Shown: piece by piece, positions 2,195-3,331 of the stretch
How the letters are laid out: the number at the start of each line of letters is the position of its first letter
Numbering within the stretch: position 1 is the stretch's first letter
Notes under the pieces: model-generated
The model's input: the letters and a program-made list of their open reading frames with translations, nothing else
Database searches by the model: none
Told to the model about the DNA's origin: nothing
Translations under genes and position numbers: made by a program
NCBI RefSeq assembly: GCF_001281405.1
Contig: NZ_CP010401.1
Coordinates: 954,001-1,018,000, forward strand
Reading direction: 5' to 3'
DNA from: Bartonella ancashensis
GTDB taxonomy: Bacteria; Pseudomonadota; Alphaproteobacteria; Rhizobiales; Rhizobiaceae
Length of the DNA: 64,000 bases

Positions 2195-3331
2195 TTGGTG
2201 ACAAAGGTATTCCATTATAAAAAAATTGCTCAAGATGGCAATGCGCGTTTAGGTGAAATTATAACGGGTAGAGGCCGCATTCGTACGCCTGCGTTTATGC
2301 CAGTTGGAACAGCAGGAAGCGTTAAGGCTATGTATATGGATCAGCTACGCGATCTTGGGACAGATGTTATTTTAGGGAATACTTATCATTTAATGTTACG
2401 TCCAGGAGCTGAGCGTGTAGCACGTCTTGGTGGTTTACATGAGTTTGCACGCTGGCCTGAACCTATCTTGACAGATTCTGGTGGTTTTCAGGTTATGTCT
2501 CTTTCGGGAATATGTAAAATTACAGAAAAAGGTGCTATTTTTCGTTCCTATATAAGTGGTGCATATTATGAAATGAGTCCAGAGCGTTCTATAGAGATTC
2601 AAGGGCTACTTGATTCTGATATTCAGATGCAGCTTGATCAATGTATTGCCTTACCAGCGAAGGAGAAGGAAATAGAAGCGGCTATGGAGCTTTCATTACG
2701 TTGGGCACAGCGTTGTAAGACAGCTTTTGGTAATCAAGCAGAGAAAGCTATGTTTGGTATTGTTCAAGGTGGTGATAACATAAGATTACGTGAATACTCT
2801 GCTCAGGCATTGAAAGAAATGAATTTAAAAGGTTATGCTATTGGTGGGCTTGCAGTTGGAGAACCACAAAATGTGATGATAGATGTATTAGATGCTACTT
2901 GTCCTATTTTACCACAAGATAAACCGCGTTATCTCATGGGAGTAGGGACACCAGATGATATTTTAAAAAGTGTTGCTCGTGGTATTGATATGTTTGATTG
3001 TGTTATGCCGACACGTGCAGGACGCCATGGTTTAGCTTTTACCCGCTTTGGTAAAATTAATTTGCGTAATGCACGCTATGCAGAGGATTCACGTCCTCTT
3101 GATATACAATCATCTTGCCCTGCCACACGTGACTATAGTCGTGCTTATTTGCATCATTTAATAAAATCGGGTGAATCTCTTGGTGGTATGTTATTGACTT
3201 GGAATAACCTCGCTTATTATCAGCAACTAATGCAAGATATTCGTGCTGCTATCGAAGCAAAATATTATGCTTCTTTTTGTGATCAAACAACTTTTTTATG
3301 GAAGCATGGCTGTGAGGTTTCTACACAGTAA
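2195..3331 (+). CDS. tgt: tRNA-guanine transglycosylase with eroded zinc site
   Basis: Bacterial TGT swaps guanine 34 of GUN-anticodon tRNAs for a queuosine precursor base. Catalytic features are intact: Asp94 in 'TDSGGFQ' (general acid/base), 'LDQC' and 'GIVQGG' (base recognition), 'GGLAVGE', and the nucleophile Asp268 in 'DMFDCVMPTR'. Length is normal at 378 residues. The structural zinc site is not intact. The family pattern CxCxxC plus a later His reads here as Ser306, Cys308, Thr311 and Asn337, so only one ligand remains. The Cys in 'LDQC' and the Val in 'LAVGE' resemble preQ1-inserting rather than queuine-inserting enzymes. TTG 2195 and GTG 2198 are both possible starts. The usual upstream partner queA is absent. 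The family call is certain; activity is open. Confidence 0.93.
   Translation: MVTKVFHYKKIAQDGNARLGEIITGRGRIRTPAFMPVGTAGSVKAMYMDQLRDLGTDVILGNTYHLMLRPGAERVARLGGLHEFARWPEPILTDSGGFQVMSLSGICKITEKGAIFRSYISGAYYEMSPERSIEIQGLLDSDIQMQLDQCIALPAKEKEIEAAMELSLRWAQRCKTAFGNQAEKAMFGIVQGGDNIRLREYSAQALKEMNLKGYAIGGLAVGEPQNVMIDVLDATCPILPQDKPRYLMGVGTPDDILKSVARGIDMFDCVMPTRAGRHGLAFTRFGKINLRNARYAEDSRPLDIQSSCPATRDYSRAYLHHLIKSGESLGGMLLTWNNLAYYQQLMQDIRAAIEAKYYASFCDQTTFLWKHGCEVSTQ

Follow-up and report, generated by a model that had tools for sequence, protein, structure and literature searches.

The window analysed here, a stretch of 64,000 nucleotides from Bartonella ancashensis, carries on its plus strand an open frame of 378 codons with zero internal stops (positions 2195..3331), which was assigned to tgt, the gene for tRNA-guanine(34) transglycosylase (Tgt, 378 aa). 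The product matched nearly the whole of two profiles (PF01702, 490 bits with a cut-off of 26; TIGR00430, 449 bits with a cut-off of 307) and was 83-86% identical to its nearest named relatives, which are from Bartonella. Two start codons, TTG at 2195 and GTG at 2198, adjoin each other (2195-2200), and the N-termini of the relatives suggest that translation starts at GTG 2198 rather than at TTG 2195. In the genome, a single contig of 1,467,695 bp, tgt was the sole match to PF01702; a second Tgt or a partner gene of the same family was thus ruled out. Upstream of tgt, two tandem genes for cyclophilin-type peptidyl-prolyl isomerases were named by eye from the translation (817-1938).

The features that define a Tgt were found in the alignments, all on the plus strand: Asp94 (codon 2474..2476; Asp102 in Zymomonas mobilis) as the general acid/base and Asp268 (codon 2996..2998; Asp280 in Z. 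mobilis) as the catalytic nucleophile, with the roles given in PMC4425180, and the motif GGLAVGE (residues 217-223; 2843..2863), which according to PMC11570991 denotes a preQ1-type base pocket. The sequence-only reading, which had taken both aspartates and the base-binding loops to be intact, was thus correct on this point. The predicted structure showed the Tgt fold throughout, with the C-terminal subdomain also in place, and the pLDDT of the zinc subdomain was 93-97. AlphaFold2 is often successful at zinc sites even though the metal is missing from its models, and the high pLDDT is to be taken as weak evidence.

In the Tgt of Z. mobilis (PDB 1pud and others), a structural zinc is held by three cysteines and one histidine, the coordination also described in PMC6165067 and PMC3660597. 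In a phmmer alignment with chain 1ozm of that enzyme, Ser306, Cys308 and Thr311 of the present protein, the remnant of the CxCxxC zinc loop (S306-x-C308-x-x-T311; 3110..3127), and Asn337 (codon 3203..3205), at the place of the histidine that is the fourth ligand, face Cys318, Cys320, Cys323 and His349 (Zymomonas residue numbers derived by offset). The alignment was free of gaps ('LDIQSSCPATRDYSRAYLHHL...LTWNNLAYYQQLM' on 'LDSECHCAVCQKWSRAYIHHL...MTEHNIAFYQQLM' of Z. mobilis), and a MAFFT alignment of 68 Tgts from the genus and 30 from the same family gave identical ligand columns; neither alignment placed another Cys or His on the four ligand positions. The loss of three of the four zinc ligands, which had been proposed from an alignment by eye, was therefore confirmed by the ungapped Zymomonas alignment and the relatives, and misalignment or sequencing error was ruled out on the same grounds. 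As judged from its sequence, the protein belongs to the Tgt family but departs from the family description in one feature, the Cys3His zinc set. It also differs from the Z. mobilis enzyme at position 278, which is His here (codon 3026..3028) and Asn in Z. mobilis; Asn or Thr occupies this position in nearly all zinc-type Tgts read, and His is typical of the zinc-less clade described below.

The same change was found throughout the genus, the family and the order. In Bartonella, 70 of the 71 genomes searched had a Tgt match (the remaining one is 85% complete), and all 68 intact Tgts, including that of the window, lacked the full ligand set: each had Ser306, Cys308 and Asn337, and position 311 was Ala in 62 and Thr in 6. 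The gene was broken in the other two genomes (G032, L101; G042, L100). Outside the genus, 33 Tgts were read from the 151 genomes of the family that were searched (the 30 best-scoring and 3 low-scoring ones); the full set was absent from all 33, none had Cys306 or Cys311, and His337 was kept in 10 of the 30 best-scoring. For the order, the search was spread over its families, and 39 of 41 genomes had a match. The full set was again absent from every Tgt read from the other families (38/38), of which 36 came from the order search (29 + 7), without the genome of the window, G099 (counted in the family) and one Tgt split over two contigs, and 2 from the phylum search; Cys308 was missing in 4 of 29 and 3 of 9 of these loci.

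Named genomes were scanned in the same way, and the best 80 of at least 586 matches were read. Both catalytic aspartates were kept in all of these 80 loci, of which 65 lacked the full ligand set and 15 had it. The full set was absent from all loci among the best 80 that were titled with a genus of Hyphomicrobiales. The zinc-less genera among the best 80 were Bartonella, Mesorhizobium, Brucella, Sinorhizobium (for example, S-C-A-N at positions 306, 308, 311 and 337), Rhizobium, Agrobacterium (S-C-S-H), Bosea, Methylorubrum, Xanthobacter, Bradyrhizobium (S-W-T-I) and others. Cys308 and His337 were kept together (SCSH) in Agrobacterium tumefaciens and some Rhizobium, and five Bradyrhizobium loci (L273, L275, L276, L279 and L281) had other residues at all four ligand positions (S, W, A or T, I). 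The titles of the 15 intact loci read Rhodospirillales/Rhodospirillaceae, Roseomonas, Acetobacteraceae, Neomegalonema, or only Alphaproteobacteria/Proteobacteria. A locus from a Geminicoccaceae metagenome-assembled genome (L284) had S-C-A-N with Thr at 278 and was the only altered named locus outside the order by name; it may represent an independent loss, a transfer or a binning error.

In the class, 260 of 289 genomes searched had a Tgt match, and 90 of these loci were read, a part biased to high scores in which three genomes of the same order were left unread; 77 were CCCH and 13 altered (four SCSH, two SCAN, and one each of GCSH, CCSH, SCSN, ICSH, VCSH, WS-H and LLSH). The last two (L189, W-S-gap-H; L191, L-L-S-H), from class members with small genomes, have lost three cysteines with His337 kept, and lie on long branches. 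All 58 Tgts read from the phylum outside the class were CCCH with Asn at 278; 9 of the 200 genomes in the phylum search were without a Tgt match. Note that the survey of the ligand site covered the window's own phylum.

In a tree of 160 Tgts, reconstructed with the ligand columns left out, the distribution of intact and altered sites required 6 changes, compared with 53 for shuffled labels, and the starred branches force at least 3. A larger and faster tree with 257 rows (102 intact and 155 altered) again required 6, and the single positions 306, 308, 311 and 337 required 7, 9, 7 and 10, respectively. These results fit a single large loss among the ancestors of the order, with several smaller losses in other Alphaproteobacteria, although many deep forks are poorly supported. 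One CCCH Tgt (L141 of genome G485, family f44) was placed among the zinc-less Tgts, on branches with weak support, possibly through transfer or an error of the tree; because of this placement and of the poorly supported forks, the number of losses is approximate. The intermediates suggest that the ligands were lost in a stepwise manner. Since SCSH occurs in neighbouring lineages as well as in Rhizobium and Agrobacterium, Cys306 and Cys311 were likely lost first, His337 next, and Cys308 last; it is also possible that His337 in the Rhizobium group was re-gained.

The function of the present protein can be approached through the Tgt of Bartonella henselae Houston-1 (PMC11570991; L089), which belongs to the same genus and shares the GGLAVGE pocket and the ligand loss (S-C-A-N, with Ala at residue 311, which is Thr here). 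This enzyme was active in E. coli, with only partial complementation, and preQ1 in B. henselae tRNA was very low, at trace level; the B. henselae Tgt and the transporter QPTR take queuine at over 500 nM, unlike their E. coli orthologues (PMC11570991). In the genome of B. henselae (G022), QPTR was matched but QueA was not. In the present genome likewise, the search for QueA gave no match, and a QPTR homologue (PF02592) was found elsewhere, at C1:409602-410060 on the minus strand; tgt and QPTR without queA thus form a gene pair as described for B. henselae. A QPTR match was present in 70 of the 71 genomes of the genus. In the gap before tgt (1939-2194), no remnant of queA was detected with the queA-locus protein of two relatives. 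The sequence-only reading had referred to published work on an unusual queuosine salvage state in B. henselae, with a Tgt of preQ1-like specificity. The work is real, and the preQ1-type pocket is present here, but no tie to zinc was found: PMC11570991 is a study of base specificity in whose main text zinc goes unmentioned.

The zinc ligands of Tgt are called "highly conserved" in a review (PMC4425180), and a recent paper (PMC9508795) states that Tgt activity needs zinc. The human QTRT1 and mouse QTRT2 subunits, which have the Tgt fold in common with the present protein, both keep the zinc-binding domain according to PMC6165067. We found no report of a loss of the zinc site in the titles and the starts of abstracts searched, a scope outside which most subscription journals lie, nor in passages of PMC6165067, PMC3660597, PMC4425180, PMC9508795, PMC5395182 and PMC8092309; the words zinc and Zn2+ are absent from the main text of PMC13416341. 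The Bradyrhizobium Tgt described above is zinc-less with His278, as here, and has gone one step further, in that all four ligands are changed (S-W-T/A-I). The zinc ligands of the E. coli enzyme were reportedly treated by Chong et al. in 1995.

Taken together, the protein is very probably a working preQ1-type Tgt, the C-terminal subdomain of which retains the fold of the family in the absence of the canonical zinc, and the change was probably inherited from an ancestor of the order. That the enzyme folds without zinc, one of several possibilities raised by the sequence-only reading, is supported by the dN/dS of tgt, the kept catalytic positions, the pLDDT of the subdomain and the active B. henselae orthologue. 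The zinc site would have changed in the ancestor of Hyphomicrobiales (Rhizobiales in GTDB), where two of the three cysteines (306 and 311) would have been replaced by Ser, Ala or Thr; His337 would then have become Asn, Ala, Val or Ile. Some lineages would finally have given up Cys308, the remaining cysteine, as well, and Ile337 often accompanies this step, S-W-T-I of Bradyrhizobium being an example. The metal tetrahedron would have given way to hydrogen bonds and ordinary packing. With its conserved residues and the activity of the B. henselae orthologue, this Tgt should work like a Tgt: G34 of tRNA-Asp, -Asn, -His and -Tyr would be exchanged for preQ1, or for queuine when the dose is high, with the base supplied via the QPTR transporter. 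Base exchange at G34 of GUN tRNAs has been published, by complementation, for the B. henselae orthologue; we infer the absence of any metal, the order of the steps, the repacking and the activity of the present Tgt. The partial complementation and the very low preQ1 in B. henselae could mean a weakened enzyme.

If the metal site had moved instead, Cys308 and His278, perhaps with other nearby side chains, would bind zinc or another metal. On the 257-row tree, His278 marks 147 of the 155 rows with an altered site and none of the 102 intact ones, and L284 is the only row without His337 that lacks it; Cys308 is kept in 239 of all 257 rows; and the SCSH rows with His278 (Agrobacterium and some Rhizobium) have three potential ligands in Cys308, His337 and His278. 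The conservation of Cys308 is higher than a dead ligand would need and counts against our preferred explanation. However, Cys308 is lost in 18 of the 155 altered rows, 13 of which have Ile at 337 (too few independent pairs for a link between the two), which leaves His278 and little else, and the present protein has at most Cys308 and His278 of the ligands named. In addition, position 278 changed only about three times on the tree, so that His278 is not independent evidence of compensation. Despite its strong cosegregation with the ligand loss, no significance was reached with independent pairs, since only 1 to 2 out of 7 showed a difference both at 278 and in the ligands. Residue 278 follows an arginine of the presumed tRNA-binding loop. 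We therefore regard a moved site as improbable in general; in the clade, metal may still be bound weakly or at an alternative site, foremost in Agrobacterium and Rhizobium with Cys308 and His337.

The two remaining explanations connect the loss with the biology of Bartonella. Decay, by which the ligands would have been lost under relaxed selection after the loss of the Q pathway in the genus, is in accord with the two broken tgt genes and the trace of preQ1 in B. henselae, but the dN/dS of tgt (about 0.07-0.14) indicates purifying selection, the catalytic and pocket residues are kept, and the same loss is found across the order. Furthermore, queA is present in 13 of the 71 genomes of the genus, and the Tgt of all 13 is S-C-A-N; the loss of the ligands is thus independent of that of Q synthesis, and a link between the two was ruled out. 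Decay is accordingly extremely unlikely. A changed substrate or partner in the salvage of preQ1 and queuine is only slightly less so. It would agree with the uptake of queuine by the B. henselae Tgt and QPTR, and two clade-specific residues, 144 and 146, adjoin Asp148 of the base pocket. Nevertheless, the queA-keeping genomes share the loss, as do other members of the order, among them a Sinorhizobium related to S. meliloti, a species that has queC, queF, queA and tgt genes; the GGLAVG pocket is shared by zinc-type and zinc-less Tgts (106 of the 119 loci from the class and the order); and the genome holds only the one PF01702 gene. Both possibilities had been offered by the sequence-only reading, and neither is supported as the reason for the loss, which seemed special to this protein only for want of comparison sequences.

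Thus, a working Tgt without the canonical zinc is the explanation that we prefer. A wider form of it, to which we give somewhat less than an even chance, is that the whole order lives on a metal-free Tgt, in which the ligands of the structural zinc went one at a time and a packed core took its place, with compensation by His278 and, later, Ile337 (and Trp308 in Bradyrhizobium); if this is true, the living intermediates record how a structural metal site evolves away. The tgt of this window is ordinary for its order, and the ligand loss, which is shared well beyond this Bartonella, reflects neither decay nor the salvage of preQ1. Since two or more ligands were lost order-wide and at least one such enzyme has been published as active, a zinc site described as required is evidently dispensable in Tgt. 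The altered Tgts form a natural graded series for the role of structural zinc in folding, dimer formation and tRNA binding, and a motif or a family name alone is insufficient for calling a Tgt inactive or for counting it as a zinc protein.

Other residues also distinguish the clade: Y47, Q144, Q146, T252 and W369 separate most zinc-less from zinc-type Tgts. A loop-helix motif lies at the dimer interface of Tgt according to PMC5395182, and the clade-specific columns 47, 48 and 50 fall in it by eye; we do not claim this as compensation. As for the two genomes with a broken tgt, the gene is dispensable in these lineages; the QPTR match is retained in G042 and absent from G032, as if the loss of the tgt/QPTR salvage pair had been caught at two stages.
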